Positions 7,538 to 55,085 of a stretch of 64,000 bases of DNA are shown here, piece by piece. Numbering within the stretch: position 1 is the first letter of the stretch; each line of letters opens with the position of its first letter. The DNA is from Fundidesulfovibrio soli (GTDB lineage: Bacteria; Desulfobacterota; Desulfovibrionia; Desulfovibrionales; Desulfovibrionaceae), in the NCBI RefSeq assembly GCF_022808695.1, contig NZ_JAKZKW010000001.1, forward strand, positions 744,001-808,000, given 5' to 3'. The notes under the pieces are model-generated. The model did no database searches and was not told the DNA's origin. It was given only the letters and a program-made list of their open reading frames with translations. The position numbers and the translations under genes are program-made.

Positions 7538-8509
7538 TCACAGCCAGGGCGTCTGCGCTTCAAGATACCCCCGCACATAATCCCCCACGCCGTCCTCCAG
7601 GGAGGTGAACGGCGCGTGGTACCCTGCCTCGCGCAGGCGGTCCATGGGCGCCTCGGTGAAGTACTGGTAGGTGTCGCGGATGGCCTCGGGCATGTCCACG
7701 TATTCGATGCGGGGCTTCTCGCCCATGGCGGCGTACACGGCCAGGGCCAGGTCCCGGAAGCTGCGGGCCTTGCCCGTGCCCACGTTGAAGACGCCGCCCA
7801 CCTCGGGGTGCTCCAAAAGCCAGCAGACCACCTCGGCGCAATCCTTGACGTAGACGAAATCCCGCAGCTGGCCGCCGTCCTCCCAGCCGTCGCGGTGGGA
7901 GCGGAACAACCGCACCGGCCCGCCCGCGCTGATCTGCTCGAAGGCCTTGCAGGCCACGCTGCGCATGTCGCCCTTGTGGTATTCGTTGGGGCCGTAGACG
8001 TTGAAGAACTTCAGGCTGGCCACCCTGTCCAGCCAGCCCTCGCGCCTGGCGGCCAGGTCGAACAGGTGCTTGGAGTAACCGTACATGTTCATGGGGCGCA
8101 GGCGCTCCAGCCCCTCGGAGCCGTCCTGGAAGCCCTGGGCGCCGTCGCCGTAGGTGGCGGCGCTGGAAGCGTTGATGAAGCGCACCCCGTTCTCCAGGCA
8201 CCAGCGGCACAGCTCCAGGCTGTAGCGGGTGTTGTTGTCGTGGAGGTAGTCCGCGTCGCGCTCCGTGGTGGCGCTGCAGGCCCCCATGTGCACCACGGCC
8301 TCCACCCGAGACGGATTGCCGCCCTGGGCCAGGGAGCGCCGGAAGTCGTCCTTGTGGCGGTATTCGCTGTAGCGCAGGCCCGGGAGGTTGCGCCACTTCT
8401 CGCCCGTGCCCAGCGCGTCCACCACCAGGACGTCGCCCTGCCCCAGCGCGTTGAGCTTCCAGACCACCGCGCTTCCGATGAACCCGGCTCCCCCGGTGAC
8501 CACGATCAT
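7538..8509 (-). CDS. hldD: ADP-L-glycero-D-manno-heptose 6-epimerase
   Basis: HldD makes ADP-L-glycero-heptose for lipopolysaccharide inner core. It is a 323-residue short-chain dehydrogenase-type epimerase with the NADP-binding VTGGAGFIGSA at the N-terminus, SSAATYGDG, the catalytic YGYSKHLFD, and KFFNVYGPNEYHKGDMRS, which is characteristic of HldD rather than of GalE. GGAGG lies 6 bp before the ATG. It converges with the GSCFA gene 9 bp away and diverges from pckA. Its presence indicates a Gram-negative outer membrane with heptose-containing LPS. Confidence 0.95.
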   Translation of the reverse strand: MIVVTGGAGFIGSAVVWKLNALGQGDVLVVDALGTGEKWRNLPGLRYSEYRHKDDFRRSLAQGGNPSRVEAVVHMGACSATTERDADYLHDNNTRYSLELCRWCLENGVRFINASSAATYGDGAQGFQDGSEGLERLRPMNMYGYSKHLFDLAARREGWLDRVASLKFFNVYGPNEYHKGDMRSVACKAFEQISAGGPVRLFRSHRDGWEDGGQLRDFVYVKDCAEVVCWLLEHPEVGGVFNVGTGKARSFRDLALAVYAAMGEKPRIEYVDMPEAIRDTYQYFTEAPMDRLREAGYHAPFTSLEDGVGDYVRGYLEAQTPWL

Positions 8510-14300: not shown

Positions 14301-14605
14301 GCCGCAGGACCGAACTGGCCAGCGCCCGCCTGCCCGTGGAAACCGGCCGCTGGCGCGAGTTGGCGGTTGAGGTGCGGGGCGGGGCCGTCACGGGGTTCGT
14401 GGACGGCAAGCCCTACATCGTCCACCACTTCGACCAGCCGCCCGTGGGCCTGGTTGGCCTGTGGTCCAAGGCGGATTCGGTGGCCGAGTTCGCCGAACTG
14501 ACGCGATCGGGCGAAGGGATGGAGAAGCGCTATCTCGCCGCCGTGCCGCAGGAAGGCGCCGCCCCGGCGGAGACGGCCGGCCCCTCGGAGCAGAAGGCAA
14601 CTTGA
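11378..14605 (+). CDS. PEP-synthase-like protein with non-canonical C-terminal half
   Basis: This 1075-residue protein begins at the ATG at 11378; the longer frame upstream is a shadow of the HD gene. Residues about 140-430 are a PEP/pyruvate-binding ATP-grasp domain: GGKGSKLALV, LPTPDGFVLTT, AVRSSAVGEDGAASFAGQYES, EGLGEKLVSG and EWCLDQDG. The swivelling phosphohistidine domain follows, with GGAASHLASVAREMGIPA (His near residue 508). The PEP-binding TIM barrel expected next in PpsA/PpdK is not recognisable. Instead there are about 350 residues of unknown type and then a LamG/concanavalin-like beta domain (about residues 900-1050). It shares one base with the chromate-family transporter start. 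It may transfer phosphate between ATP and an unknown acceptor; the function is inferred only. Confidence 0.75.
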   Translation: MSLFGFLRKKNACLLLADPEDRAARKYRHFRDMLAENNAVLDGLAALEQTFYGGEPFTTGAVRGACRAIVESTRCMADSLNDLSQRRHEGLYPALDAVLAGALAALEPSTDAQEGPAAAPLVVPLSAAGGTGDTAAQDALLGGKGSKLALVRSVAALPTPDGFVLTTAAFRLFLRASGLEELAAKELEPVSPLDLPDLEARSLRLRQAVRDAPFPPEISSELAAALKALTAARGPGLTLAVRSSAVGEDGAASFAGQYESVLNVAPQDLEAACRMVFASKYSPHAILYRLRHGLEDADAPMAVLVLAMVHSKVSGVLYTVDPSFPASPASPSGGVMRLDAVEGLGEKLVSGEARPSAYALSREPLKVLSRPEAALLTDAQALELARMGLALEAFFGSPQDVEWCLDQDGSLVVVQSRPLGAQEQDETPAQIQDQAGADWAAGLKVILQGGTAASSGAASGEVVRVEGAVPESIPEGAILAARNAAPELAALLDRAGGVVTAMGGAASHLASVAREMGIPALFGLPGCPEAFSPGQVVTLDATGGRVLEGRAELPPSSRPRSRLVDSPMHRRLRAALDLLAPLTLTDPDSADFKPENCRTLHDVVRYAHEMGMREMFGLCDSAGDDDLPVARLKAQIPLILYCVDLGGGLRENLTTCDDITPDDLRSVPMLAVWRGFTHPGITWSGTIAFDAKSFMTLMASSATAEVGGGAPGGDSYAMLGRDYLNLSARFGYHFANVDAFCGGQPSQNHVTLRFAGGAGGFTGKCLRVAFLSRVLARLGFTVDASGDVLDGSLKGAPQQQTEDALDQLGRLLACSRLLDMAITGQAEVESMAEAFLRGDYDLLAKRRENPLPEFHLALGDWECLPDGAGRCVARQDGSEWATGLSKGLASLMGRLSGGRYQRFLDTVEAYFHFPLAVAKGSEMGDGRAALMVRPVAGVIDQAAGLAFAVRSAGTYLVLRVNALEDNLMLFAFKDGRRTELASARLPVETGRWRELAVEVRGGAVTGFVDGKPYIVHHFDQPPVGLVGLWSKADSVAEFAELTRSGEGMEKRYLAAVPQEGAAPAETAGPSEQKAT

Positions 14606-15897
14606 TGAGCGAAGAGACAGCCACCCCCCGTGTCCCCTTGAAGGTGGCCTTCCTCTACTGGTTCCAGCTCGGGTTCATCAACTTCGGCGGCCCTGCCGGG
14701 CAGATCGCCATGATGCACAAGAACCTGGTGGATACGCGGGGCTGGATCAGCGGGCAGGCCTTCCTGCGGGCGCTCAACTTCTGCATGCTCCTGCCGGGTC
14801 CGGAGGCGCACCAATTGGCCGTGTACATCGGCTGGCGGCTCAACGGACGCCTGGGCGGGGCCATCGCCGGGCTGTGCTTTCTGCTGCCGTCCGTGGCGTT
14901 GATGCTGTTCCTCTCCTGGCTTGCCGCCGCGAAAGGGCACGTGCCCGCCGTGGCGGGCGTCTTCCACGGGATTGCGGCCGCCGTGGTGGCCATCGTGGTG
15001 GAGGCGCTGTTCCGGCTTTCAAAGAAGTCCCTCCGGCACCCGGCACTTTACGCTTTCGCGGGCGGCTCCTTCATCCTGGGGCAGTTCTTCGGCGTGTCCT
15101 TCCCCATGATCGTGCTGATGGCCGGTCTCGGAGGCATGGCCCTGGCGCGGGTCCGCCCGGACATCTTCTGCCAAACCCGCCCCGGCGCCAAGGAATGCCT
15201 GCCGGAAGAGCCCGGCGACGCCGCGCCGCTGCCCCCGCTGACGCACGTCGTGAAGACCGTGGGCGCCTTCGCGGCCATCTGGGCGGCCGTGGTGCTGCCG
15301 GTGCTGGCCTGCCGAGGCATGCCGGACACGCTTTCCCAGATCGCCCTCTTTTTCAGCAAGGCCCCTTTCGTCACCTTCGGCGGGGCCTACGCCGTCCTGG
15401 CCTACATCGTTGACCACGCGGTGCGGCTGGACTGGCTGACGCAGACGGAGATGCTGCTCGGCCTGGGCCTGGCCGAGACCACCCCCGGCCCCCTGATCAT
15501 GGTGACGCAGTTCGTGGGCTTCATCGCGGCCTGGAAGCAGCCGGGGGACCTGGCCCCCCTGGCCGCCGGGATCGCAGGGGGCCTGCTCACCACCTTCACC
15601 ATGTTCCTGCCGAGCTTCATGTTCGTGTTCGCGGGCGCGCCCTACATCGAGGCCATCACCGCCGACCGCAGGCTCGGCGCGGCCCTGACGGGCATATCGG
15701 GCGCGGTTGTGGGCGTGGTGCTCAAGATCGGCGTCTATTTCGCCTGGCACACGTTCTTTCCCTCGGGCGAAGCCGACGTTTTCGCCATGGCGGTGGCCGT
15801 GGCGGCCCTGGCCGCGCTCGTGCGCTGGAAGGTCTCCATGCACGTGCTCGTCGGTCTGAGCGGCGCGGCGGGACTCATGTGGCAAATGATCCGTTAA
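14605..15897 (+). CDS. chrA: Chromate transporter family (CHR) protein
   Basis: A 430-residue two-domain CHR transporter with about ten membrane segments. Both halves carry the family signature: FGGPAGQIAMMHK near the N-terminus and FGGAYAVLAYI in the second half, plus LLPGPEAHQLA and ETTPGPLIMVTQFVGF. The family exports chromate; some members move sulfate-like anions or have no known substrate. Its ATG overlaps the preceding stop (TGATG), so it is translationally coupled to the PEP-synthase-like gene, and the octaheme cytochrome starts 17 bp after it. The neighbourhood fits a metal or oxyanion response but does not prove chromate as substrate. Confidence 0.88.
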   Translation: MSEETATPRVPLKVAFLYWFQLGFINFGGPAGQIAMMHKNLVDTRGWISGQAFLRALNFCMLLPGPEAHQLAVYIGWRLNGRLGGAIAGLCFLLPSVALMLFLSWLAAAKGHVPAVAGVFHGIAAAVVAIVVEALFRLSKKSLRHPALYAFAGGSFILGQFFGVSFPMIVLMAGLGGMALARVRPDIFCQTRPGAKECLPEEPGDAAPLPPLTHVVKTVGAFAAIWAAVVLPVLACRGMPDTLSQIALFFSKAPFVTFGGAYAVLAYIVDHAVRLDWLTQTEMLLGLGLAETTPGPLIMVTQFVGFIAAWKQPGDLAPLAAGIAGGLLTTFTMFLPSFMFVFAGAPYIEAITADRRLGAALTGISGAVVGVVLKIGVYFAWHTFFPSGEADVFAMAVAVAALAALVRWKVSMHVLVGLSGAAGLMWQMIR

Positions 15898-15914
15898 CCA
15901 TAAGGAGAGTGGCT

Positions 15915-17486
15915 ATGCGCGGAAACCGGATGTTCGCCGTGGCGGCGGTGCTGGCGATCCTGGCGGTGCTGGGAGTTTGCGGGGGTGACGCACTCCAGGC
16001 CAAGGAGAAGGCAGGCCAGACGCCCCCCAGGGTGACGGCCCCGGCCGGCATGGTCAGGCCGTCGGTGTCCACCGCGGCCGTCGAGGGGGCCTCGTTCGCA
16101 GGCTCCCAGGCCTGCAAGGCCTGCCACGCCAAGGAGTTCAAGGAGTGGTCCGCCTCGGGCCACGCCAACATGCTGCGGCCTTACGACGCGGGCATCGTTA
16201 AAGGGAATTTCTCGGGGCCTGAGCTGGTCTTCGAGGGGGTCGAGGTCGAGGACGCCGACAAGAACAAGGTCAAGATCGCACCCAAGGTGAAGGCCGAAAC
16301 CAGGGACGGCAAGTGCTACGTCACGCTGCTGGACGCCGATTCCCCGGCCAACGCCCAGAGCTACGAGGTCGTCGAGGTGCTCGGCTCACTGTGGGAGCAG
16401 CAGTACTACCTCAAGGTCGGTGACAAGGTGTACCCCAGCCCGGTGCGCTGGGTGGAGACCGACAAGCAGTGGCGCAAGAACGCCTTCGCGCCCTTCTGGT
16501 GGGCCGCCGACGGCACCCCCGACGGCAGGCCCAGGAAGCCGGAGGAGATGCCCGCCAAGCAGACCGTGGACTACCAGTGCAACGGGTGCCACACCACCGC
16601 CTTCAACGCCAAGAAGGACGAGCAGGGCAAATACGCCTTCTCCCGCTTGGAAGGCGGCATCGGCTGCGAGCAGTGCCACGGCCCCGGCTCCAAGCACGTG
16701 GCCGCACAGGGCCAGGGCGGCATCCTCAACCCCCGCAAGCTGGGCACCTGGCAACAGGAGCAGCTCTGCGGCCAGTGCCACATCCGCGTGAACAGCAAGC
16801 AGGACAAGGACTTCGCCTTCCCCCTGGGCTTCAGGAGCGGCCAAACCGACCTCCAGGACAAGGTCGAGTTCTGGAGCTACTCCACCAGGCCCGCCAACTT
16901 CTGGGGCAACGAGGACTCCAGGAAGAACCGCCAGCAATACCACGACACCATGCGCTCCGGGCACATGGCCGCCGGGGTGACCTGCTCCGCGTGCCACCTG
17001 GACCACGCCACCAAGCACCTGAGCTCAAGCCTCAAGCTCCCCAGGGAACAGCAGTGCGTGGGCTGCCACGCCGCCCAGAAAGCCCTGTATGAGGGCAGCG
17101 TCCATGCGTCCAAAGGGGTCGTCTGCGTGGACTGCCACATGTCCAAGATGGGCAACCGGGCCGGGGCCACGCAAAAGACCCCGAAGGACCCGTGGGACGT
17201 CTCGGCCCACACCATGCGGGTTGTGACTCCTGAAGAGGCCGACGTGTTCAAGATGCGCTCCAGCTGCGACAAGTGCCACAAGGACGCGGACCGGGCCGCG
17301 AAGGGGGCGGCGCTGATGGAGTCACGGCAGGCAGTGCTCAAGCAGGTCCAGAAGCTCCAGTCCTCTCCTGCGGGTGGCAAGGCGGCGTCCACAGCCGTGG
17401 AGAAGGCGAATCTGGTTCTGATGGACGGGTCCCTGGGCGCCCACAACCCGCAGAAGGCCCTCCAACTGCTGCAAGCCTCGAAGTAG
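15915..17486 (+). CDS. Secreted octaheme c-type cytochrome (cytochrome c554-like)
   Basis: A 523-residue periplasmic cytochrome. A Sec signal covers residues 1 to about 30 (hydrophobic AVAAVLAILAVLGV). Eight CXXCH haem sites are visible in order: CKACH (67-71), CNGCH, CEQCH, CGQCH, CSACH, CVGCH, CVDCH and CDKCH. The spacing and FAGSQACKACHAKEF...WSASGHA resemble the cytochrome c554 family; extra histidines (HGPGSKH, SGHMAAG) could be distal ligands. AAGGAG lies 8 bp before the ATG at 15915. It likely passes electrons to a periplasmic acceptor. Its position 17 bp after the CHR transporter suggests one transcript. It is not an ammonia-forming nitrite reductase: no CXXCK haem is present. Confidence 0.88.
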   Translation: MRGNRMFAVAAVLAILAVLGVCGGDALQAKEKAGQTPPRVTAPAGMVRPSVSTAAVEGASFAGSQACKACHAKEFKEWSASGHANMLRPYDAGIVKGNFSGPELVFEGVEVEDADKNKVKIAPKVKAETRDGKCYVTLLDADSPANAQSYEVVEVLGSLWEQQYYLKVGDKVYPSPVRWVETDKQWRKNAFAPFWWAADGTPDGRPRKPEEMPAKQTVDYQCNGCHTTAFNAKKDEQGKYAFSRLEGGIGCEQCHGPGSKHVAAQGQGGILNPRKLGTWQQEQLCGQCHIRVNSKQDKDFAFPLGFRSGQTDLQDKVEFWSYSTRPANFWGNEDSRKNRQQYHDTMRSGHMAAGVTCSACHLDHATKHLSSSLKLPREQQCVGCHAAQKALYEGSVHASKGVVCVDCHMSKMGNRAGATQKTPKDPWDVSAHTMRVVTPEEADVFKMRSSCDKCHKDADRAAKGAALMESRQAVLKQVQKLQSSPAGGKAASTAVEKANLVLMDGSLGAHNPQKALQLLQASK

Positions 17487-17535
17487 CGGCCCGCCCGGGC
17501 GCGGTTGAAACGTCCGCACCCTCACTACATGCAAA

Positions 17536-17560
17536 ACGGCCGCCCTCCCCGGGCGGCCGT
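17536..17560. terminator. Strong hairpin after octaheme cytochrome
   Basis: A perfect 10-bp stem, ACGGCCGCCC against GGGCGGCCGT with a 5-nt loop. No T-run follows on the + strand; on the minus strand TTTTG follows. It probably ends or stabilises the cytochrome mRNA. Confidence 0.6.
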
Positions 17561-17875
17561 ATCAAGCCCCGCAGCCGCTGCCCATAAGCGGCGGAACCGT
17601 CAATGACGCCCTTTTTGTTCCACCAGGGCTTTACATTCTCCGAACATACTGTACATTATTTATTAAGTACGTGTATTTGGACCATCGCGGTTCCCTTGCG
17701 CACAGGGCACCGCGACCGGATCACCACATTTCAGGTGTTGGGGCGGGCATCCCGGAGAGCTGCGGCAGCCGCCCTGAAACGGATGCGCCGCGTCTCCGCC
17801 CGCAGGGCCTGAACGATGCGGCAGCCACCGGATTCAGCCCATCCCTGTGCATGCCTGCTCCGCAAAGGATGTTTC
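17561..17875 (+). promoter_or_regulatory. Gene-less AT-rich leader of the nosL operon, with promoter candidate
   Basis: This 315-bp gap holds no credible gene. A local AT-rich patch carries a possible sigma-70 promoter: TTTACA at 17630-17635, a 16-bp spacer, and TACATT at 17652-17657. That would leave a 210-nt leader before nosL. I see no recognisable metal-regulator operator. Confidence 0.35.
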
Positions 17876-18364
17876 ATGAAGAAAGTCATTCGCTTTGTGC
17901 CTCTGGTTCTTGGTCTGCTGCTCCTGGCCTCCGCCGCTCTCGCCCAGCCCGCCGAGCCGAAGCTCCCTCCGCCGGGCAAGACCGACAAGTGCCCGGCCTG
18001 CGGCATGTTCGTGGCCAAGTACAAGGATTGGCTGGCCTACGCGGTGCTCACGGACGGCAAGACCCTCTACTTCGACGGCCCCAAGGACATGTTCCGCTTC
18101 GTGGCCGACCCGGGCCATTACCTGCCCGGCTTCAAGAAGGAGCAGATTGCGGACCTGTACGTGAGCGAATTCTATTCCCTGAAGCCCATCCCCGCGCAGG
18201 CGGCCTTCTACGTGGCGGGCAGCGACACGTACGGCCCCATGGGGCAGGAGCTTGTGCCCCTGGCCAGCCAGGCCGACGCCGAGGCTTTCCGCAAGGATCA
18301 CAAGGGCAAACGCGTTCTGCGCTACGGCGACATCACCCCGGCCCTGCTCAAGGCTCTGGACTGA
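17876..18364 (+). CDS. nosL: NosL-family periplasmic copper-binding protein
   Basis: NosL proteins bind Cu(I) and deliver it to a periplasmic target, classically nitrous oxide reductase. The 162-residue protein has a cleavable Sec signal ending near LLASAALA, then KCPACGMFVAKYKDW, whose Cys and Met are the NosL metal ligands, and LYFDGPKDMFRF. It lacks the lipoprotein cysteine of typical NosL. AAGGA lies 6 bp before the ATG at 17876. No nosZ, nosD or nosF is nearby; instead it leads a coupled set with an ABC transporter and CusBA-type efflux genes, so a general copper-trafficking role is more likely than N2O reduction. Confidence 0.85.
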   Translation: MKKVIRFVPLVLGLLLLASAALAQPAEPKLPPPGKTDKCPACGMFVAKYKDWLAYAVLTDGKTLYFDGPKDMFRFVADPGHYLPGFKKEQIADLYVSEFYSLKPIPAQAAFYVAGSDTYGPMGQELVPLASQADAEAFRKDHKGKRVLRYGDITPALLKALD

Positions 18365-18690
18365 TGCGCCCCTCCGACGCCTTTCTGGCCGTGACGGGCG
18401 GCCTGGGTTTCATCCTGGCGGGCCTTTTGGCGGGCTACCCTCTGGCCGAGGCCGGACGGCGCGACGCCCGCCTGGCCCTCGAGTCGCAACTGGTGGCCGA
18501 GCTGGGCCTGACCGACCTCTGCCTCTCCACCGAGGCCCGCTACACCCGGCACCTCTCCCAGGCGGACCTGTTCTCGGCCTTCCAGGACCACCCGCGCAGC
18601 CTGGAGCACTTCCCCAGCGGAGCCCTGCTGCCGCCGCCTGGCATCCTCACCTCTCGCGGCGGGCCCGGCGGGGGGGAGGACAGGCCATGA
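18364..18690 (+). CDS. Small membrane-anchored protein of unknown function
   Basis: A 108-residue protein with one N-terminal membrane segment (about residues 8-27, FLAVTGGLGFILAGLLAGY) and a soluble, probably periplasmic, remainder that ends in a Gly/Pro-rich tail. I do not recognise the family. It is certainly expressed with its neighbours: its ATG overlaps the nosL stop (TGATG) and its stop overlaps the permease ATG (ATGA). The context suggests an accessory subunit of the NosL/ABC unit. It has no cysteine- or histidine-rich metal motif. Confidence 0.75.
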   Translation: MRPSDAFLAVTGGLGFILAGLLAGYPLAEAGRRDARLALESQLVAELGLTDLCLSTEARYTRHLSQADLFSAFQDHPRSLEHFPSGALLPPPGILTSRGGPGGGEDRP

Positions 18691-19823
18691 GCTCCTTCGA
18701 GCGCCAGCGGGCGTTTCTTGATTACACCCTGGCCAGCCTGGTGCGGCGCAAGGCCAAGAACGGCGCGCTGGTCCTGGCGTACGCCCTGGTGGTGTTCCTG
18801 ATCGCCTCGGTCATGTTCTTCTCCCGCGCCTTGCGCACCGAAGGCCAGGCCGTGCTGGCCGGGGCTCCGGAATTGGTGGTCCAGCGGATGCTGGCGGGGC
18901 GCTTCGACACGATCCCCGCCTCATACGCCGTGTCCATCGGCAAGATCCGCGGCGTGAGCCAGGTGGAGCCGCGCCTGTGGGGCTACTATTTCAACCGGGC
19001 CGTGGGCGCGACCTTCACGGTCCTGGGCCTGCCGGACTTCGCCCACGCCGACAACGAGATCGTGGCCGGCCCGGCCGCGGCCAAGGCCTGGACCAACCTC
19101 CAGGAGGGCCGTTACCTCTTCCGCACCTTCAAGGGCGACTCCGCCGGGTTCACCCCCGTGCAGGTGCTGCCCGAGGAGACGCGGCTCGTCTCCGCCGACC
19201 TGATCATCATGTCGGAGACAGCCTTCCGCCAGGTGTTCGGCCTGCCCGAGGGCCAGTACACCGATCTCGCGGTCAACGTGCGCAACCCCCAGGAGATGCA
19301 GACCGTCACCGAGAAGATTCAGCGCGAGCACCCCGACACCCGGCCCATCCAGCGCGAGGAGATTCTGCGGACCTACGAGTCCGTGTTCGAATGGCGCGGG
19401 GGCATGGTCATCGTGGTGTTCACGGGCGCGGCCCTGGCCTTCTTCATCTTCGCCTGGGACAAGGCCACCGGCCTCTCCGCCGAGGAGCGCCACGAGATCG
19501 GCATCCTCAAGGCCCTGGGCTGGGACACCTCCGACGTGCTGGTGATGAAGTTCTGGGAGGGGCTGGCCATCTCGCTCACGTCCTTCCTGTTGGGCACCAT
19601 CGCCGCCTACGCGCACGTCTTCCTGGCGGACGCGGGCCTTTTCGCCCAGGCCCTCAAGGGCTGGAGCGTGCTCTATGTGGACTTCCCGCTGAGCCCCGTG
19701 GTCAGCCTCACGGAACTGCTGGCCCTGTTCTTCCTTTCCGTGGTGCCCTACACCTTCATAACCGTCATACCGGCCTGGCGGGCGGCCATCACCGACCCGG
19801 ACACGGTCATGCGCGCGAGTTGA
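18687..19823 (+). CDS. ABC transporter permease, MacB/FtsX type
   Basis: A 378-residue permease of the FtsX/MacB/LolC class: one N-terminal membrane helix (about residues 28-48), a large periplasmic domain, and three C-terminal helices with the FtsX-like core. The segment ERHEIGILKALGWDTSDVLVMKFWEG is the cytoplasmic coupling region typical of this class. Such permeases move or sort substrates on the periplasmic side of the membrane instead of pumping from the cytoplasm. It is coupled to both neighbours, with the ATPase 3 bp downstream. With NosL it may handle copper delivery; the substrate is not known. Confidence 0.85.
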   Translation: MSSFERQRAFLDYTLASLVRRKAKNGALVLAYALVVFLIASVMFFSRALRTEGQAVLAGAPELVVQRMLAGRFDTIPASYAVSIGKIRGVSQVEPRLWGYYFNRAVGATFTVLGLPDFAHADNEIVAGPAAAKAWTNLQEGRYLFRTFKGDSAGFTPVQVLPEETRLVSADLIIMSETAFRQVFGLPEGQYTDLAVNVRNPQEMQTVTEKIQREHPDTRPIQREEILRTYESVFEWRGGMVIVVFTGAALAFFIFAWDKATGLSAEERHEIGILKALGWDTSDVLVMKFWEGLAISLTSFLLGTIAAYAHVFLADAGLFAQALKGWSVLYVDFPLSPVVSLTELLALFFLSVVPYTFITVIPAWRAAITDPDTVMRAS

Positions 19824-45886: not shown

Positions 45887-48244
45887 TCAACCGCCGTTCA
45901 TCAGCAGCCAATCCGCCGCTGGCGGGGCGTATGGGTTGTACACCTGGATGACGTGCATCATATCGTGCTCCTCGTGCTCGAGCATATGGCAGTGCCAGAT
46001 GTATTCGAAGCCGAAGTTGTGCAGCGGATTTGTCACAGCGTTGAAGGGCTTCGTGGCGTTGAGCGGGCGCACGCTCTGGGGCACGCCGAAGGACAGGCGA
46101 GGCGGCGAGAACTTCACGGCCACGATGGCGTTGGTCCCCGGCAGCATCCGGATTGTTTCCTTCCAGCCCAGTTCGTTGGGGTCCGGGGGCGTCACGACGC
46201 CGGCCCAGTCCACGCGGGCCACGAGCTGCACGTTCTCGAGGTGGATGTGAATGGGATGGACATCACCCGTATTGTTGACCACGGTCCATATCTGCGGCTG
46301 GCGGTTGAACACGGTTTCCGTGGGCATATCCTCGTAGCCGGTGCCGTAGGCCGGGGTGCCCTGGTTGCCTATGGTGAAGGCGTTGGTGCCGATCTGGGTG
46401 TTCAGGCGGCCGTGGCTGTCGAAGTTCTCGTTGAGGGTCTTGATCTTGACCGGGATGCCGGCGACGGTGGTATCGCGCACGTTCACAGGGGTGCCGGGGG
46501 GCACTATGGCCTTGGGCTGGGTCTGGGCGAAGATCGCGGGCAGGCCGGTATTGGCGTTTGCCAGATAGGCCTTGGTGGCCGCGTAGTTCACGGCGTCAGG
46601 GGTCCCACCGGCCACGACGCGGAACTCCATCATCGTGCGGGTGTTGGGGCCCTGGCCCTGAAGGGTGGTCGGGGCGCCTCCGAACGCGGTCTGGTCGGGA
46701 GCTCCAGTGAAGAAGTCGTCGCGGGGGTCTCCGGCCGGGGCGGGCGCGGGCGCGTCGTTGTAGAGGATCAGCCTGGCGCCCGGGGGCAAGGCCGAAAAGT
46801 CGACGATGATGTCCGCGCGCTCAGCCGGGGCGACCAGGAGGGTGTACGCCGTGGGCATGGTCGTCGAGGTCGGGATGGCGCCCCACTGGGTCGGCGGATT
46901 GTTCATCTCCACCGGTGCGGGCAGCACGCCGCCCTCGTTGGCTATCTGGAGCATGGCCGGGCCGGGCTGGGCCAGGTTCGCCTCGCCGGTGTAGTTCAGG
47001 TTGATGTCCTGAGCTTCCATGTACAGCTGCAGGTTGAAGGCCCTTGCGCCAGCCGCGTTGAGGATGCGGAAGCGATACTTGCGCTGCTGCACATCCATGT
47101 AGGGGTAGGCCACCCCGTTGACCATGGACGTGTCCTGAAATGCCTCGGCCACGGCGGAGACGGCGGGCGGGTTCTGGACGTTCTGCACGGGCGGATACAC
47201 CCAGCCGCCGAAGTCCCAGCGGCCTGTGGGGTTCGGAGTGCCGTCGGCCAGGTTCTGGTTGGGCTCGTACACATGGGGGTACCAGAGGGCGCCGGTGAAC
47301 TGGCCCCAATCCGGGTTGGCGGCCCAGGAGGGATCCTGGGTTCCGATCGTGGCGGAATTGACGAAGCTCTTGTCCTGGATGATCAGCGGAATGCCGAGGC
47401 CGCTGTTGTCGGCGGGCAGGATTCCGTTGGCCACCAGCTGCGCTTCGGCCGTATCCGTGACCAGGAAAGCCGAGGCCATGCCGGCGTAGACGTTGGTGCG
47501 GGTGATGCCCACGGCGTGGTCATGGTACCAGAGCATGCGCGCGCTCTGCAGGTTGGGGTAGTAGGCGTTCCATTCGTTTGCTGCCGGTGTCGCCATGTCC
47601 GGCACATTGATGTAGCTCACACCCTTCTGGCCTATGCCGGAAGGCGTGAACCACTGGTTGGGGGTGCCGTCGCTGATCCAGGGCACGAAACCGCCGTGCA
47701 GGTGGATGGCCGTGCGGTTCTGGACGCCCTCCGCGCCCATGATGGTGGTGTCGACTGGCAGAAAGGCGTTGCCAATCGGCAACTCGTTGCGGAAGGTCAC
47801 ACGCACTGGACGGTTGGTGTGGGCCACAATGATGGGGCCAAGATAGGACTGCTTCTCCGTGGTTCCCAGCTTCGTGATCGAAGCATTGGGACTGAGGTCA
47901 TAGTAACCGCGCAGTGTCGTCTGGTTAGGCAGCCCTGAATGCATCTGCTGGGAATACTGCCGAATTCCTATCTGATAGTAATCACTATTAGGATCGGAAG
48001 GATAACTGACAGGCTTCGCGATCGGTATGCAATATCCCAACGTATTATAGGAAGTATTCGTATCATTGCAGACAGGCGTAAGAGAGTCGACAAATTTGTT
48101 AAGAATCGGGCTAAATGCGTACCCATGAGCATCCGAAGTTACAACCCCGTTTCCAGGGGAGTAGCTTACGGGTGACAACACTGCACAGAGCATTGTCATC
48201 ACAATTGCTGTCCGCGACAAGTTCAACTTACGCCACAATTCCAT
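45887..48244 (-). CDS. Exported multicopper oxidase, CotA/bilirubin-oxidase-like
   Basis: A 785-residue multicopper oxidase with all four copper motifs: AIHLHGG, LWYHDHAVG, HPIHIHL and WHCHMLEHEEHDMM. The last holds the type-1 Cys and the axial Met, so a full set of four coppers is predicted. The ATG at 48244 is chosen because AGGAGG lies 8 bp before it; the ATG six codons upstream has none. A Sec-type signal covers about residues 10-33. The N-terminal region has an extra pair PVCNDTNTSYNTLGYC. The first ~110 codons are clearly AT-richer than the rest. The substrate may be a metal ion, phenol or bilirubin-like compound. Confidence 0.88.
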   Translation of the reverse strand: MELWRKLNLSRTAIVMTMLCAVLSPVSYSPGNGVVTSDAHGYAFSPILNKFVDSLTPVCNDTNTSYNTLGYCIPIAKPVSYPSDPNSDYYQIGIRQYSQQMHSGLPNQTTLRGYYDLSPNASITKLGTTEKQSYLGPIIVAHTNRPVRVTFRNELPIGNAFLPVDTTIMGAEGVQNRTAIHLHGGFVPWISDGTPNQWFTPSGIGQKGVSYINVPDMATPAANEWNAYYPNLQSARMLWYHDHAVGITRTNVYAGMASAFLVTDTAEAQLVANGILPADNSGLGIPLIIQDKSFVNSATIGTQDPSWAANPDWGQFTGALWYPHVYEPNQNLADGTPNPTGRWDFGGWVYPPVQNVQNPPAVSAVAEAFQDTSMVNGVAYPYMDVQQRKYRFRILNAAGARAFNLQLYMEAQDINLNYTGEANLAQPGPAMLQIANEGGVLPAPVEMNNPPTQWGAIPTSTTMPTAYTLLVAPAERADIIVDFSALPPGARLILYNDAPAPAPAGDPRDDFFTGAPDQTAFGGAPTTLQGQGPNTRTMMEFRVVAGGTPDAVNYAATKAYLANANTGLPAIFAQTQPKAIVPPGTPVNVRDTTVAGIPVKIKTLNENFDSHGRLNTQIGTNAFTIGNQGTPAYGTGYEDMPTETVFNRQPQIWTVVNNTGDVHPIHIHLENVQLVARVDWAGVVTPPDPNELGWKETIRMLPGTNAIVAVKFSPPRLSFGVPQSVRPLNATKPFNAVTNPLHNFGFEYIWHCHMLEHEEHDMMHVIQVYNPYAPPAADWLLMNGG

Positions 48245-48949
48245 TGCAGCACCTCCTATCAACAGTTGAAATCAGTAACAGCTGGCATGATTTCCTTACT
48301 GGCCTCTTGGTTTCAAACAATCCAAGAGTCAATGAGGCTACACTCCAAGCAGGGCAAAGGCCTGCCGCCCATTTGCGCGGGCCTTAAATGGACTTCCCAT
48401 CCAACATACACCCAGTCGTGAAGGTTTCAACTTATTTTTCACGATTTCGCACTGTCCTCCGAAAATTATTGCCCCACCGCCATACCCATTCGCACCCATT
48501 GACTTTTGTACCAACCTGAACGGCGACACTCACACGTCAATCATTACAAACAGATGTGGGTGTGTTTAGGTGCATAGACACGCCGGATGTCAATCCAGCG
48601 ACATCGTGGCAACTCCCAATATGCTCCAGCAAGAACATTCGACTTGCGGACTGATCATCTCGCCAATCCGACCGGTCATGAGGGCCGAGGGGCTCATAAC
48701 GGCCACATACAACCTGCCTCCAAAACTGGGTATCGCCGTGGCGAGCAGCGCTGACATGCCCAGTGTCCCTGAGCATGAACATCATCTTCCGGGCTGTCTC
48801 ACCGCCATGACGCTACAAAATTGCTGTACGGGCCTGGATGACCTGGAAGCAGGAGCACTGAGAGCTGTTCCGCCTATATGCAAGCAATAGACGCGCCCCG
48901 TAGATACGGGAGGCCGCCCGCCCGCGCAATGGCCGAGATCTTCAAACGT
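48245..48949. other. Gene-less AT-rich stretch upstream of multicopper oxidase
   Basis: About 700 bp with no credible gene on either strand. It holds the promoter region of the oxidase. One notable element is an inverted repeat TCGTGAA-N15-TTCACGA at 48416-48444, a possible operator about 170 bp before the start codon. Base composition is visibly lower in GC than in the flanking core genes. Confidence 0.45.
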
Positions 48950-49090: not shown

Positions 49091-51058
49091 CTACTGCAGC
49101 AGATGGATCAGGGCCGGCGCGATGACATTGCTCGGGATGAGCCTGTCGTCCCGGCTGAAGGGGTCCATCCCGAGGAATGGTTTGAGCGGATACGTGCTTC
49201 CCGCCTGGCCCACTGCCGGAATTTCGCGCATCTCGCTGCAGGTTGCTGTCAGGATCTGCTCATCCGTACACAAGACTGCAAGCTGGTTCCCGGGCTCTCC
49301 ATTGGGCACGAAGAGTTGGGGATGGTCAAACGGAGCCCTCCGATACTTGACCCGGTCATCGGTGAGAGTGAGCAGGAAGGCCACCAGGGCATCCTTGTTG
49401 GCCTCGTTGCCCACGAGCAGATTCAGCCGTCCGCCGGGCTGATCCGGCCCGATGGCGGGCGGCATGTCCCTGAGGTTCTGCTGCTGAAAGTCACCGCCTC
49501 GGCCGTAGAAGTCCATGACCTCCTTGAGGGTGGTGAGGCCACCATTATGGAAGTACGGTCCGGTCAGCTCGACATTGCGCAGTCCGGGCGTCTTGAACGC
49601 GCCGTTGACGGAGATGAAGCTCTCCGGGAGAGGCTGACCGAATTCGTCCCTGACATTTCGGGAGAAGGACAATGGCCTGTCCCAGGGATCCTTCCCGCCG
49701 CGACCGAGGTCCGCGGCAGTCGGGCGGACCGCGAGGTTGTAGAAGCCGATGTCATAATTGCGGGAAAAGCCGTCCTTCATGGGCATGAATTCGATGACCG
49801 CCAGCGGCTCTCCAGGGTTGGCGGCAGCCAACTCCACGGTGGAGATGTTCGTCAGCTCCGGCCCGAAGTGGCATATGGAGCAGGACGTCCCCTTTTGCGG
49901 ATCCGTGTTGTAGAACAGGTCCATGCCGCGTTTTTCCCGCTCCGTAAGGTCGATCAGGCCTTCGCGGAACCGGTCAAAGCGGGTATCATTGGAGATGAGC
50001 GTCCGCTCATACGCCTGGATCGCCAGCCCGGCGAAAAGGGAGAAGTTGTTCTCCATCTGCTCCCGCCCGTGCGCCCAAAAGTCGTCCTTGAAGGCCGCGG
50101 CGACAAGGTCGGCGTAAGTCCGAGGGCTCCCGTCCTGATTGGTCCGCAGGCCCGGGCCCGGGCGGGCGGAGAGGCTCCCCAGCACGCTGTCCTGGGGATG
50201 GACGTCCTGTTTCGCCAGGGGCGTGAGCGCGAGCATCTTCCGGCCCAGTTGGGGAAACGTCCGGCCCGCATAGGACATCTCGGCGGAGCTGAGCATGGGT
50301 CCGACAGCCTGGGAGGCGAGACTCGAAAAGTCGAGGCTGACAGTTTCAGGGACGAGGGTGCCGGTGCCGTCCATGCGGAGTATCTGGTGGGCCAGAACGG
50401 CGCCGGTGCCGAACTCGTTGACACCATTGAAAATATTGCTCGCCCTTCCGTCCCAGAAGTTCACGTAGTTGAACGCGGCATTGATCACCGAGGGCGCGTT
50501 CCTGGCAGTCACCTGGCGAACCTGCTTCCCATTGACCTGGAAGACGGTCGGTGCGGCCGTGAGTGTCCCCTGCTCCAATCCCCCCTGGGCGGGATCGTGT
50601 CCGACGTAGTCGACGCTGAAGACGCCCTGGGAGCCGGAGCTGTCGTCGCTGTCCCCCAGCACGGTGTTGCGGTCGTCGGGGGATGAGAGCTTGCGAAAGG
50701 GATACTTCGCAGCCGTCAGGATGGCGTTTGGCTGCATGGCGAAAGCGCCATCCTTGCCGGGGTGGACCTGATTCTTGTTCCTGTTGTCCCCGCCGGCGTG
50801 GAAGTGACAGCTCGCGCAGGCCGTGACGCCGTCGCTGCCGATCTGCATATCCCAAAACAGGGCCTTCCCGAGAATAATCGCGGCATTGTTGTCCTTGATG
50901 TACCTGTCGATCCCGGGGATCGCCGGAAGAGTGATCGTCTTCAGTGATGGCGGGATGACCGGAGCCACTTGGCTGAAGGGGAGGGACGGAAACAGGAACA
51001 AGGTCGCCAGGATGAACGCGGCGAGAGGGTAAACCCGGAATCGATGACGGCGGACCAT
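49091..51058 (-). CDS. Secreted di-heme cytochrome, MauG/CcpA family, enlarged
   Basis: A 655-residue exported protein; ATG at 51058 has AGGAG 7 bp upstream, and a signal covers about residues 10-30. Two c-haem sites are visible: CASCH at residues 81-85 and CSICH near residue 395. Family context is seen in LGKALFWDMQIGSDGVTACASCH, RNAPSVINAAFNYVNFWDGRA and FKTPGLRNVELTGPYFHNG. CcpA enzymes are about 330 residues and MauG about 370; the extra length is mostly between the haem domains and at the C-terminus. It may be a peroxidase, a protein-modifying enzyme, or the electron acceptor for the oxidases upstream. It is the last gene of the operon. Confidence 0.85.
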   Translation of the reverse strand: MVRRHRFRVYPLAAFILATLFLFPSLPFSQVAPVIPPSLKTITLPAIPGIDRYIKDNNAAIILGKALFWDMQIGSDGVTACASCHFHAGGDNRNKNQVHPGKDGAFAMQPNAILTAAKYPFRKLSSPDDRNTVLGDSDDSSGSQGVFSVDYVGHDPAQGGLEQGTLTAAPTVFQVNGKQVRQVTARNAPSVINAAFNYVNFWDGRASNIFNGVNEFGTGAVLAHQILRMDGTGTLVPETVSLDFSSLASQAVGPMLSSAEMSYAGRTFPQLGRKMLALTPLAKQDVHPQDSVLGSLSARPGPGLRTNQDGSPRTYADLVAAAFKDDFWAHGREQMENNFSLFAGLAIQAYERTLISNDTRFDRFREGLIDLTEREKRGMDLFYNTDPQKGTSCSICHFGPELTNISTVELAAANPGEPLAVIEFMPMKDGFSRNYDIGFYNLAVRPTAADLGRGGKDPWDRPLSFSRNVRDEFGQPLPESFISVNGAFKTPGLRNVELTGPYFHNGGLTTLKEVMDFYGRGGDFQQQNLRDMPPAIGPDQPGGRLNLLVGNEANKDALVAFLLTLTDDRVKYRRAPFDHPQLFVPNGEPGNQLAVLCTDEQILTATCSEMREIPAVGQAGSTYPLKPFLGMDPFSRDDRLIPSNVIAPALIHLLQ

Positions 51059-51073
51059 TCGTTTCTCCTGAGA

Positions 51074-51103
51074 ATCCGGCTCCCGCATGCGCGGGAGCCG
51101 GAT
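51074..51103 (-). other. Intercistronic perfect hairpin
   Basis: ATCCGGCTCCCGC and GCGGGAGCCGGAT pair perfectly over 13 bp around ATGC. No T-run follows, so it is more likely an mRNA processing or stability element between the secreted protein gene and the di-heme cytochrome gene than a full terminator. Confidence 0.65.
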
Positions 51104-51129: not shown

Positions 51130-52503
51130 TTACTGCTGCAGCAGCATGTAGTTAGGTCCGGCTACGACCGGCGGAATGACGAATTCCACCTTCACCCTGG
51201 CCATGCCGCCCTTAGCCGACTTGACCACAATCTCCGAGGGAGGAATGGGGAGCGCCATGCTCAGGGAGCCTGAGGCTGACATCGCCCCCAGCAAGGTGGT
51301 TCCGTCGCCGTCATAGACAGTGAGCGCAGGGGCGTTGAGGAGGTCCGCCGACTTGGCCTTCACGTTCAGCGTCCCTGTCGGATTGCTGGCGTTCTCCGCG
51401 ATGACGTACTGGGCTCTCGTAATGTTCACGATATCCACGGGCTGAACCGTGAGGCTCGAGGTCGCGGGGGCGTCGGACACGTTTTGGACGACGACAGGCC
51501 CCGGCACCTGGCCTCCCTGGAAGAACACCCTCCCGAACTGCTTTCCGGGGGGCAAGGGGGTTGTGCCGGGCGTCAACTGAACCGGCACCGCGACGCCCGG
51601 GGCGGAGGCGGTCAGGGTCTTTCCGGGCGCAGTCGAGGCGTAGACATCGACCCTGCCCGAGCCCGTGCGCCCGAGGGTGTAGGTCGCCTGGTCCAGGGAG
51701 GCGCCGAACTTGGTCGCCACCTTGCCCATGATCGCGAAGGAGTTGCTCTCGATCACGTCCGAGGGATTGCCGGCCGTGCCGAACGCCCCTCCGGTCACAA
51801 CCGGGCCGCTTATGCGCTGGACCCTGAACACGTTCGTGTTGTTCGGGCTCCCGGTCGCCGTGCAGGGCACGTTGGGATCACCCAGGAACCCGGCAGGGGC
51901 CGCGGGGGAGACGCACTGCAGGAAGGGGCCGATTTCGCCCTTGAGCGCGCCGGTGAACACGCCGACCTGGATGCCGACGTCCGCGGTATGGTTGATGGCC
52001 CGTCCACCGGCGGTAGCGGCGTCAACTACGAAGTCGGTGACTCCGTAAGGGTGGGTGACACGGTAGGTGCCAGCCGCCCCCGCGTTCGTATCCACCCTGA
52101 TCCGCATCCTGGCAAAACTGATCTGGTCCCCAGCGGCCGGGGTTTCGCCAAGTGAGAACGCCGCCTCAATGGCCATATCCAGCAGCGCATCGCCGCCGTT
52201 CGGCAGGGTGATGGCCGACGTCGCGCTCCACCAGAAAGCTTCGGCGCCGAAGTTGTCCGGGAACGAGACGGGGTTGTTGGGGAACGGCAAGGCCCGCAGG
52301 CAGAGGGGGCCGGCCACGGTCTCGATGGGGTCCATGCAGAGTTCCAGGTAGGTCCCGGCCTTGTCCTGGTACCAGAGGGGGAACCCGTTGGCCGGGTCCA
52401 GCGGACCGACGGCCGCCAGTTCGGCGCGCGCCGGTCCCGACAACGCTACGAGTGAGATGCAGGCCAAGGCGGCGAAAAGGCTCAACAGCTTATTCTTAAT
52501 CAT
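51130..52503 (-). CDS. Secreted protein of unknown function in oxidase operon
   Basis: A 457-residue protein; the ATG at 52503 has AGGAG 6 bp upstream, and the longer frame beyond it is a shadow of the neighbouring gene. A clear Sec signal ends at LSGPARA. The mature protein begins with GFPLWYQDKAGTYLELCMDP and has cysteine pairs in the first third. The C-terminal half is rich in Val, Thr, Ser and Gly and looks like all-beta domains. I do not recognise a family or any haem or copper motif. It sits 35 bp after the second oxidase gene and 71 bp before the di-heme cytochrome, so it is a structural or binding partner of that system. Confidence 0.82.
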   Translation of the reverse strand: MIKNKLLSLFAALACISLVALSGPARAELAAVGPLDPANGFPLWYQDKAGTYLELCMDPIETVAGPLCLRALPFPNNPVSFPDNFGAEAFWWSATSAITLPNGGDALLDMAIEAAFSLGETPAAGDQISFARMRIRVDTNAGAAGTYRVTHPYGVTDFVVDAATAGGRAINHTADVGIQVGVFTGALKGEIGPFLQCVSPAAPAGFLGDPNVPCTATGSPNNTNVFRVQRISGPVVTGGAFGTAGNPSDVIESNSFAIMGKVATKFGASLDQATYTLGRTGSGRVDVYASTAPGKTLTASAPGVAVPVQLTPGTTPLPPGKQFGRVFFQGGQVPGPVVVQNVSDAPATSSLTVQPVDIVNITRAQYVIAENASNPTGTLNVKAKSADLLNAPALTVYDGDGTTLLGAMSASGSLSMALPIPPSEIVVKSAKGGMARVKVEFVIPPVVAGPNYMLLQQ

Positions 52504-52538: not shown

Positions 52539-53777
52539 TTACCCAAGCAAAAGGTTGTACGGCACGGGGTTCCATTTCTTCACCTCGATGTATGTCTGCG
52601 ACGAGTAGTCGACCTGGCCGGTGATCCAGTTCAGGAACTCGATCTTCACGGGGAACTTGCCGCCAGCCTTGGGCTTGATGATCAGGTCGTAGCGCCTGGC
52701 CGTTGTCAGGGTGAACGGCTGACCGGCCTTGATGGTGATCGGGCGGGAGTACTTGGTCATCGCGTTCTTGGTCGGGTTCGCGCCGACGCCGAGGGGACGG
52801 CCGTCCTCGGCGACAAGTTCCACATCCAGCCCGAAGGTGTAGCGCTGCACCTTGTATCCGCCGCAGAGCAGCCTGATGAGGATGGTTTCGCGCCCCTTGG
52901 ACGTGATGCGGGACCTGGGGTCGGTCTGCCACAGGCCAGGCGTCGGATTGCCCTTGACCTGGGGCACGCCGCTGATGAGGAAGATGTCAGGGTCGTAGAC
53001 GTGAAGGCCTGGAGCCCCGTTACTGGTGTTTTGAGCGATGGTGGTGAACCCGGAGAGCTGGGGCGCCCCCGGGATGTCGTTGGGCGCCGGCGGCTGGCCG
53101 AACGACTTGTCCATGACGTGCCACTTGCGGTCGATCTCCGTGACAGCCCAAAGCGCTTCCACGTCGTACTTGGGCCCCCCCTCGTAGAGCGTGCCAGGCC
53201 CGGTGGGCGGGTCGATGATGAGGAAGCCGAACATGCCCATCTGGAAGTGGAGAGGCGTGTTGCGGTGGCAGTGGTAGAAGAACGTCCCGGCCTGCCTGGG
53301 CACCATCTGGTAAATGTACTGGCCGTCGACCTCCATGGTCACGTGGCCGACGCCGTCGTTGATGGGCTCGGGCTCGAGGCCATGGTGGTGGATCGTGTGC
53401 GGGCCGTGGTGCGTGTGCACCGTTGTGTGGATGATCTTGTCCTGGGTGTAGCGCAGGGGCACGGACGGATACGTGATCACGTTGGAATTGTCCGGGTCGA
53501 AGAAGCCCCAGACCTCCACTGTGTTCGGCGTGGCGTTATTGAGTATCTGGCCGGTGACCAGGCTCAGGTGCTTGTCCTTGTAGAACTCGCGGGTGGTGCG
53601 CTGGTGGGTCGCCGGATTGAAGGGAACGAATCCCGGCGTGTTCGGCGTCCCGTGGAAGATGTTCGCGAAGCCGCGATTGAAGTGATAGACCGCGTGGTCG
53701 TACTCGGGGTCGCTGGGGGCCGGGAAGTGACCCCGGCTGACGGTCGGGAAGGTCGTGTTGTTGCACTGTATGGCCAT
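52539..53777 (-). CDS. Half-size multicopper oxidase without signal peptide
   Basis: A 412-residue cupredoxin protein. Near residue 125 is HTHHGPHTIHHHGL, a His-rich version of multicopper motif 1, and near residue 165 is FFYHCHRNTPLHFQMGMFG, motif 2 combined with type-1 Cys/His/Met ligands. The C-terminal half is cupredoxin-like but I see no motif 3 or 4. Despite these copper sites there is no signal peptide: the N-terminus is polar (MAIQCNNTTFPTVSRG). The gene begins 21 bp after the Tat-signal protein gene, so export as a complex with that product is likely. Activity alone is doubtful. Confidence 0.85.
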   Translation of the reverse strand: MAIQCNNTTFPTVSRGHFPAPSDPEYDHAVYHFNRGFANIFHGTPNTPGFVPFNPATHQRTTREFYKDKHLSLVTGQILNNATPNTVEVWGFFDPDNSNVITYPSVPLRYTQDKIIHTTVHTHHGPHTIHHHGLEPEPINDGVGHVTMEVDGQYIYQMVPRQAGTFFYHCHRNTPLHFQMGMFGFLIIDPPTGPGTLYEGGPKYDVEALWAVTEIDRKWHVMDKSFGQPPAPNDIPGAPQLSGFTTIAQNTSNGAPGLHVYDPDIFLISGVPQVKGNPTPGLWQTDPRSRITSKGRETILIRLLCGGYKVQRYTFGLDVELVAEDGRPLGVGANPTKNAMTKYSRPITIKAGQPFTLTTARRYDLIIKPKAGGKFPVKIEFLNWITGQVDYSSQTYIEVKKWNPVPYNLLLG

Positions 53778-53798
53778 GGGGAACTCCGTGATATGCTG

Positions 53799-55085
53799 TT
53801 ATAAACCAACGCTGTTGGTGAAGCCGCGGGGGTCGGGGTCCCCGAAAATCCTGCGGTCGGGATGCTTGCCGATCAGGGCCGGATCAACAGGGCCGCCGAT
53901 GGTGGGCGACAGGATGGACCAGTGCGTCATGGAGCCGTTGGGATAGTTTCCGCCGGCCGCGGTCTGGGAAGTCTCCAGGTGGCAGTGCATCGGGTATACG
54001 AAGGGGAATTGTGATCTCAGCACGCCCGAGGCGACCTCGACCTTGGGCACCCCGCCGGCTGCTGACCAGGCCGCCGGGTCTTCCGGACTGTTGATGGTAT
54101 CGGGCGGAATGATGAAAGGCAGAAGATGGCTCTTGATGTCGCCCGACAGCATGCTCCACGTGTCCAGGAATATGAGGTTGTCCTTGACCGTGCCGTTCGC
54201 GGCGAGCTCAAAAACGTGGTTGCCATGGATGTGGGGAGAGGCAGCGTTCAAGCCGCTGTTCATGGACACGATGAGGGCCGGCATGCCGACGTTGCCGTAA
54301 GGCGCCGTGTCCGGCTCGTGGCCGGACCAGTGCCCGCTTCTGCCGTTGATGAGAAAATACTGGGGCGTATAGGTGGTCGTGAAACTCGCCACGCTCGCTG
54401 CTATGCCCGCGGCGTTGCCGTCGCAGGCAAGGGTCTGGATCGTCTGGTTCCAGTTCGGATCCACGCTGTGGAACATCCAGAGCCAGGTTCTTGCCGGATC
54501 CCAGTCGTCTCCGGGGAAATACGAAACCTTTCCAAAATCCGAGAACAGCTCCTGCATCGCGGCAGGGGGCGAGCTGTAGGGAATCCTGTTCCCGTTCGGG
54601 AGGACCGCGTTCTGCGGCTTGACGAACAAGGCGCCGTTCAGGCCCATGACCCGGTGCAGAGGCCAGTTCAAGGGGTCAACGTACATGTAGCTCCCAGCTG
54701 CGGGAGCCGTGAACGTCACCGAGCCCGTGCCGCCGGGTTGAATGGAGGCAATGGTCGTGCCGGGCAGTATCTGGGTGCCGTTCCACAGGCCGAAGCCATG
54801 GGGGATGCTGTTGTTGTTCGTGATGTTGAAGGTGACCTGCTCGCCCTCCAAAGCGTTGACGATCACCCCGGGTATCCTCGGCCCGGAACCGTCATCGAAC
54901 GCCCAGGCGTTGACCTGGATGCCGTCTACCATCTCCCAAAGCACTGGCTGGATGGTTAGGTTGACAGATGAAGCCGCATGACTGGTTGAGACGCCCAGCA
55001 TTGTGGGCAGGCCCTGAGTTCCAGCCAAGGCAATTCCCGCCAGGGCCATACGAACGTTGATCTTGATGAATTCACGCCTGTTCAT
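53799..55085 (-). CDS. Tat-exported half-size multicopper oxidase subunit
   Basis: A 428-residue protein with a twin-arginine signal (MNRREFIKINVRMALAGIALAG; cleavage near SHAAS). It has two or three cupredoxin domains. In the N-terminal domain the usual HxHG and YHCH motifs are degenerate (PHGFGLW; SYMYVDPLNWPLHRVMGLNG, no Cys). The C-terminal domain has SPHIHGNHVFEL, a motif-3 equivalent, and MHCHLETSQTAAGG, a motif-4 equivalent. It leads the four-gene operon, with GGAG 7 bp before the ATG. Together with the next gene it supplies one complete set of copper motifs, so a heteromeric oxidase is inferred. Confidence 0.87.
   Translation of the reverse strand: MNRREFIKINVRMALAGIALAGTQGLPTMLGVSTSHAASSVNLTIQPVLWEMVDGIQVNAWAFDDGSGPRIPGVIVNALEGEQVTFNITNNNSIPHGFGLWNGTQILPGTTIASIQPGGTGSVTFTAPAAGSYMYVDPLNWPLHRVMGLNGALFVKPQNAVLPNGNRIPYSSPPAAMQELFSDFGKVSYFPGDDWDPARTWLWMFHSVDPNWNQTIQTLACDGNAAGIAASVASFTTTYTPQYFLINGRSGHWSGHEPDTAPYGNVGMPALIVSMNSGLNAASPHIHGNHVFELAANGTVKDNLIFLDTWSMLSGDIKSHLLPFIIPPDTINSPEDPAAWSAAGGVPKVEVASGVLRSQFPFVYPMHCHLETSQTAAGGNYPNGSMTHWSILSPTIGGPVDPALIGKHPDRRIFGDPDPRGFTNSVGL

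Follow-up and report, generated by a model that had tools for sequence, protein, structure and literature searches.

Two adjacent two-cupredoxin proteins are very probably the subunits of a single multicopper oxidase

To our knowledge, textbook multicopper oxidases carry the whole set of copper ligands on every active chain or on every chain of a homo-oligomer. Within the window, the 64,000-nucleotide stretch of Fundidesulfovibrio soli DNA analysed here, two neighbouring genes encode proteins that each bear exactly one half of the O2-reducing centre, which raises the question of whether they are the halves of one enzyme.

Gene run and copper ligands of the pair

The two genes, assigned by motifs, Pfam, alignment and profile matches, encode A, a Tat-exported protein of 428 residues (53,799–55,085, minus strand), and B, a leaderless protein of 412 residues (52,539–53,777, minus strand). 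Both open reading frames were confirmed in the ORF list at the positions where an earlier, sequence-only reading had placed them. Each chain gives one match to Pfam Cu-oxidase_3, which speaks against a chance occurrence of the motifs, and contains two cupredoxin domains, as judged by profile and fold comparison, and curated family libraries hold no specific name for either. The TAA stop codon of A and the following 21-nt spacer, which carries the GGAG ribosome-binding site of B, occupy positions 53,778–53,801 (minus strand); in the window B is read in the same frame as A, with the TAA in frame between them. Read-through of this TAA as the normal route to a single A–B chain was considered and rejected, since a separate ribosome-binding site precedes B and the two genes of other pairs overlap or are read in different frames.

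A and B open a co-oriented run of four genes, A-B-C-D, on the minus strand (55,085–49,091), with gaps of 21 nt between the A stop and the B start, 35 nt between B and C, and 41 nt between C and D. Domain search and neighbourhood comparison identify C (51,130–52,503, minus strand) as a secreted protein without known domain and D (49,091–51,088, minus strand) as a MauG/MbnH-like di-haem protein. The C family has no known domain or PDB relative; it recurs adjoining A–B, is expanded there in Desulfuromonadia, is also found within surface-repeat proteins and is linked to fibrillar repeat proteins. A gene for E, a complete CotA-like three-domain laccase (45,887–48,262, minus strand), lies 828 bp downstream of D. 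With 785–791 residues, E is unusually long for a CotA-like laccase; it is a separate enzyme and not part of the split one.

The copper ligands were compared in an alignment of 101 A and 103 B sequences from same-phylum genomes, plasmid records and 80 genome-contig loci, and each histidine was assigned to the type-1 site or to the trinuclear cluster (TNC) from the profile alignment with 2zwn and 3g5w and from established multicopper oxidase chemistry. Four TNC histidines in domain 2 of A are invariant (101/101): H285 and H287 of motif 3, HIHGNH (residues 285–290; 54,216–54,233, minus strand), where H290 is kept in 100 of the 101 sequences, and H367 and H369 of motif 4, MHCH (53,979–53,990, minus strand). 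The residue between the motif-4 histidines, Cys368, is by contrast variable (59 Cys, 20 Asp, 12 Ser and 10 Gly among 101), and a second type-1 His, sought from C+2 to C+13 of motif 4, is absent from all 101 A sequences. Since, in addition, position 282, the first of motif 3, is Ala in the window, A supplies TNC ligands only, and its MHCH is not a type-1 copper motif. Alignment and A/B profile comparison show a degenerate copper loop in domain 1 of A, SYMYVDPLNWPLH (residues 132–144; 54,654–54,692, minus strand), in which SYMYVDPLN stands where B has FYHCHRNT. Position 137, equivalent to the type-1 Cys of B, is Asp in the window and is occupied by 92 Asp, 4 Glu and 5 gaps among the 101 sequences.

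The reverse pattern is found in B, whose domain 1 retains H130, H132, H169 and H171 as TNC ligands together with the type-1 set H127, C170 and H177, all invariant (103/103), while the axial position 182 is shared by Met (59) and Leu (44). The HTIHHHG motif (53,379–53,399, minus strand) contributes the type-1 ligand H127 and the TNC ligands H130 and H132; the segment YHCHRNTPLHFQMGM (residues 168–182; 53,232–53,276, minus strand) contributes H169 and H171 to the TNC and C170, H177 and M182 to the type-1 copper. As judged from the alignment, B thus holds a complete type-1 site (H127, C170, H177 and M182). Nothing similar to motif 3 or 4 was detected in B, and the domain-2 stretch facing motif 3 of A in an hhalign comparison of profiles, GGYKVQRYTFGLDVE (52,818–52,862, minus strand), has lost all ligands. 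Copper sites are therefore missing from domain 1 of A and domain 2 of B.

The sequence-only reading had proposed that the two proteins carry complementary copper motifs, and this holds throughout the family, four TNC histidines always being on A, and four plus the type-1 site always on B (101 A, 103 B). Its description of each chain was confirmed at the sequence level, with HIHGNH, MHCHLE (366–371) and a degenerate first domain in A, and HTIHHHGL (from residue 127) and the second domain-1 motif without motifs 3 and 4 in B. It had also held that the two products jointly supply exactly one ligand set; indeed, none of the eight TNC histidines is replaced in any of the A and B homologues, while the residues neighbouring them vary, and the combination of eight such histidines in four HxH motifs with a type-1 site is found only in A and B together. 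Apparent relatives of A without motifs 3 and 4 were rejected upon alignment, the search pattern having been too strict (HGNH versus HANH, MHCH versus MHDH or MHSH).

Pairing, distribution and export

A lies directly 5′ of B in 77 of the 80 loci of the B-seeded genome-contig set, and the remaining three (L088, L103 and L115) are truncated where their contigs end. In an A-seeded search of 395 genomes of the phylum, full A matches also adjoin B; of two other matches, one (L028) is weak and not clearly an A, and the other (L027) is truncated by the end of its contig. Across 24 whole genomes, there is one adjacent B per strong A, except for an A fragment (G459:C255). Skermanella aerolata (L118, L127, L141) has seven A–B pairs on different contigs, in one of which A is partial. 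Plasmid pTC1 of Paenarthrobacter aurescens carries one A without adjacent B, and the remains of a decayed A–B pair (L038:2129–2984) lie about 6.5 kb from it. The distance matrices of A and B are correlated at 0.78, compared with 0.13 or less in 1000 permutations, a value that partly reflects the shared descent of linked genes. In one locus (L095; JACPFJ010000025, 8816–11164), from a single deltaproteobacterial metagenome assembly, A and B form one ORF of 858 codons, with neither the A stop nor the B ATG at the junction. The joining segment of this natural fusion contains a short GC-rich inverted repeat.

A scan of genome contigs with the single B sequence returned no matches, and a profile scan retrieved 211 relatives. 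Alphaproteobacteria account for 39–40 of the 80 loci, the others belonging to Thermodesulfobacteriota, Chloroflexota, Myxococcota, Nitrospirota, Actinomycetota, Planctomycetota and Bdellovibrionota, that is, eight phyla by name, or about nine when unplaced deltaproteobacterial lineages are counted apart (NCBI ranks taken from record titles). The pair is infrequent. Within the phylum it turned up in 14 of 395 genomes, a count that takes in the genome of the window and a few weak matches, and within Sphingomonadales in 3 of 199. The window pair clusters with those of Desulfuromonadia (support 98) on a long branch, and no A–B pair was detected in the same-genus genomes searched. In the annotated records examined, the halves are labelled 'hypothetical protein' or 'multicopper oxidase domain-containing protein'.

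The two chains also differ in their export signals. A begins with MNRREFIK, a twin-arginine signal (signal region, residues 1–38; 54,972–55,085, minus strand), and B begins with MAIQCNNTTF and has no signal. A twin-arginine precedes domain 1 in 87 of 89 A sequences with a loose pattern and in 78 of 89 with a strict one; the strict-pattern misses are mostly plain RRxF with a weak hydrophobic stretch, and a genuine exception is A of L037, whose match to the loose pattern is spurious. Among 99 B sequences, none has a Tat-like and two have a possibly Sec-like N terminus. The Tat system transports folded proteins, and other Tat hitchhiker pairs exist. Since folded proteins are carried, the leaderless B would most simply ride out on A, and it is probably exported bound to it.

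Ancestry, predicted structure and rival explanations

The profiles of A and B align with each other across both domains (hhalign, 99.4%), which shows the two proteins to be homologous; on the simplest view they are paralogues descended from a two-domain oxidase, with losses that complement each other. This mutual homology argues for loss after duplication rather than for one gene cut in two. The domain 2 profile of A maps onto domain 2 of 2zwn (HIHGNH against HAMHSHGH, MHCH against HDH), and that of domain 1 of B onto domain 1 of 2zwn and 3g5w (HTIHWHG, YHCH). These structures, a laccase and the blue copper oxidase of Nitrosomonas europaea, respectively, are type-C two-domain oxidases, with two cupredoxin domains per chain, as in A and B, and type-1 copper in domain 1 only, a pattern shared by B and matched by its absence from domain 2 of A. 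The motifs HTIHWHG, YHCHxN, HxxHxHGH and HDH are common to both kinds. In type-C oxidases the TNC is shared by two chains, one contributing domain 1 and the other domain 2, and the same is predicted for A–B. Known type-C oxidases are, however, homotrimers with both halves on each chain, whereas the A–B halves are carried by two diverged paralogues, A having the domain-2 half only and B the domain-1 half only, the remaining two domains being devoid of copper sites; B, moreover, seems to rely on A for export. The homotrimeric type-C oxidase is thus the nearest known kind, from which A–B departs in lacking both halves on one chain: it would work like a type-C enzyme, but as a heteromer. A closed ring of three subunits would not accommodate A and B at 1:1.

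The in-frame TAA allowed the window A–B to be folded with AlphaFold2 as one chain of 848 residues, giving a pTM of 0.87 and a mean pLDDT of 82.5 with a disordered linker (residues 404–437); the natural fusion reached a pTM of 0.89 and a pLDDT of 88.5. Values this high would not normally be expected for halves whose mutual orientation is uncertain, and they support an A–B interface without proving it, as joined chains force proximity. Foldseek places MnxG, ceruloplasmin and factors V/VIII at the head of its matches, with query TM scores of 0.43–0.53, those of MnxG and ceruloplasmin being 0.47–0.53, and an r.m.s. deviation of about 8–12 Å; the single two-domain chains of 2zwn and 3g5w score just 0.26–0.28. 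These matches agree with a predicted arrangement of four successive ring domains. Ceruloplasmin and MnxG (9bxa), among the top matches of both A–B models, are rings of successive cupredoxin domains, some of them copper-free, but they have six domains on a single chain where A–B has two chains of two, and A–B does not belong with them at the sequence level. MnxG acts with MnxE and MnxF. In a Chloroflexi locus (L107:11104–12141), a third, weakly A-like cupredoxin ORF follows directly after A–B and could complete a six-domain ring.

That A and B are separate, cotranscribed copper proteins with no shared centre, B being a type-1 carrier or NirK-like and A a type-2 protein, is unlikely. The best single-sequence PDB matches of A are indeed NirK, which has a two-domain fold like that of A and B and sequence similarity in domain 1, and B could form a complete type-1 site alone. 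NirK, however, has one mononuclear type-2 site between subunits and not pairs of HxH motifs, while all eight TNC histidines are retained across A and B, and domain 2 of A matches at the profile level the TNC half of a two-domain laccase. Against the NirK model TIGR02376, A scores 63.7 bits and B 22.2 bits, well below the cut-off of 296, which places neither in that family. The natural fusion and the lack of an export signal in B also speak against two independent proteins.

Two further explanations fare worse. Two-domain oxidases are trimers (PMC13151041), and A and B could each form homotrimers whose missing ligands another protein provides, for instance the CotA-like E, encoded in the same region; yet E-type oxidases already have a full ligand set, E is no regular neighbour of A–B elsewhere, and A and B complement each other exactly, which makes this highly improbable. 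The loss of half of the ancestral ligands from each protein and the decayed copy on pTC1 could point to a fragmented oxidase without copper function. This is barely credible, given that the remaining ligands are 100% invariant in about nine phyla at roughly 35–45% identity and that ribosome-binding sites and signal peptide are intact.

A and B are, we consider, very likely two subunits of one multicopper oxidase, and its activity very probably requires both proteins. We regard the pair as a two-domain multicopper oxidase of type C that has become an obligate heteromer through subfunctionalisation. The obligate hetero-oligomer put forward in the sequence-only reading is supported by ligand invariance in about nine phyla, strict pairing, the natural fusion, the presence of a Tat signal on A but not on B, the domain mapping to 2zwn and 3g5w, and confident joint models. 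In the proposed scheme, an ancestral type-C oxidase with type-1 copper in domain 1 would have been duplicated, copy A retaining only the domain-2 trinuclear ligands and copy B only the type-1 site and the domain-1 trinuclear ligands. Domain 2 of A would pack on domain 1 of B, as between neighbouring subunits of the known homotrimers, and the eight histidines would form one trinuclear cluster at this contact. Electrons from the substrate would pass from the type-1 copper of B through Cys170 and His169/171 to the cluster, where O2 would be reduced to water. The pair may assemble in the cytoplasm and leave as a complex through Tat on the signal of A, to meet outside the cell a substrate that is probably Mn(II), Fe(II) or phenols.

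Gene neighbours, possible substrate and significance

Erythrobacter sp. SD-21 is a classical Mn(II) oxidiser. Its A–B locus (L123:8420–19421) contains A at 8420, B at 9809, a LuxR-type response regulator gene at 11887 and a giant RTX animal-haem-peroxidase gene at 12969–19421, which is apparently mopA. MopA of this strain is an Mn(II) oxidase (PMC6247904); the gene neighbourhood of mopA is not described in that paper. MopA, an unrelated haem enzyme and a possible partner, shares its neighbourhood with A–B in several alphaproteobacteria: in ten alphaproteobacterial loci, a giant gene of the MopA type lies 2–3.5 kb downstream of the B start, and an animal-haem-peroxidase gene is present in all 14 alphaproteobacterial genomes tested. 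Among 199 Sphingomonadales, the giant RTX peroxidase occurs in five and A in three, all three among the five (p = 8e-6; p = 0.015 after removal of two seed genomes). Other neighbours of A–B include type II secretion genes and a PCuAC copper chaperone; plasmids of Arthrobacter and Paenarthrobacter add copper-resistance genes and an MntH-type transporter. The neighbours in delta-type bacteria and Brocadia are secreted repeat proteins and, as with D in the window, a MauG/MbnH-like di-haem protein; D may be an electron partner, or a modifier of a neighbouring secreted protein.

The position of A–B beside a MopA-type peroxidase gene in SD-21 and its relatives points to extracellular oxidation of Mn(II) or Fe(II), which we offer as a tentative best guess; phenols are a possible substrate as well. 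Rather more doubtful is the wider proposal that A–B forms a class of its own among secreted metal oxidases, a split, heteromeric Mn(II)/Fe(II) oxidase acting with MopA-type peroxidases in alphaproteobacteria and, in delta-type bacteria, with surface proteins and MauG-like di-haem proteins. Its rare four-domain fusion would then stand midway between the two-domain homotrimers and the six-domain MnxG and ceruloplasmin.

We found no description of a split or heteromeric multicopper oxidase in the open-licence literature searched, and the current annotation labels of A and B hide the enzyme. A widespread pair of gene products that share a single trinuclear cluster would be a clean case of duplication and complementary loss at a metal centre, and a simple system for probing cluster assembly through half-site mutation. 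It may also represent a step between two- and six-domain oxidases, and the pair beside the mopA-type gene of SD-21 is a testable candidate for an as yet unassigned copper-dependent Mn(II) oxidase.
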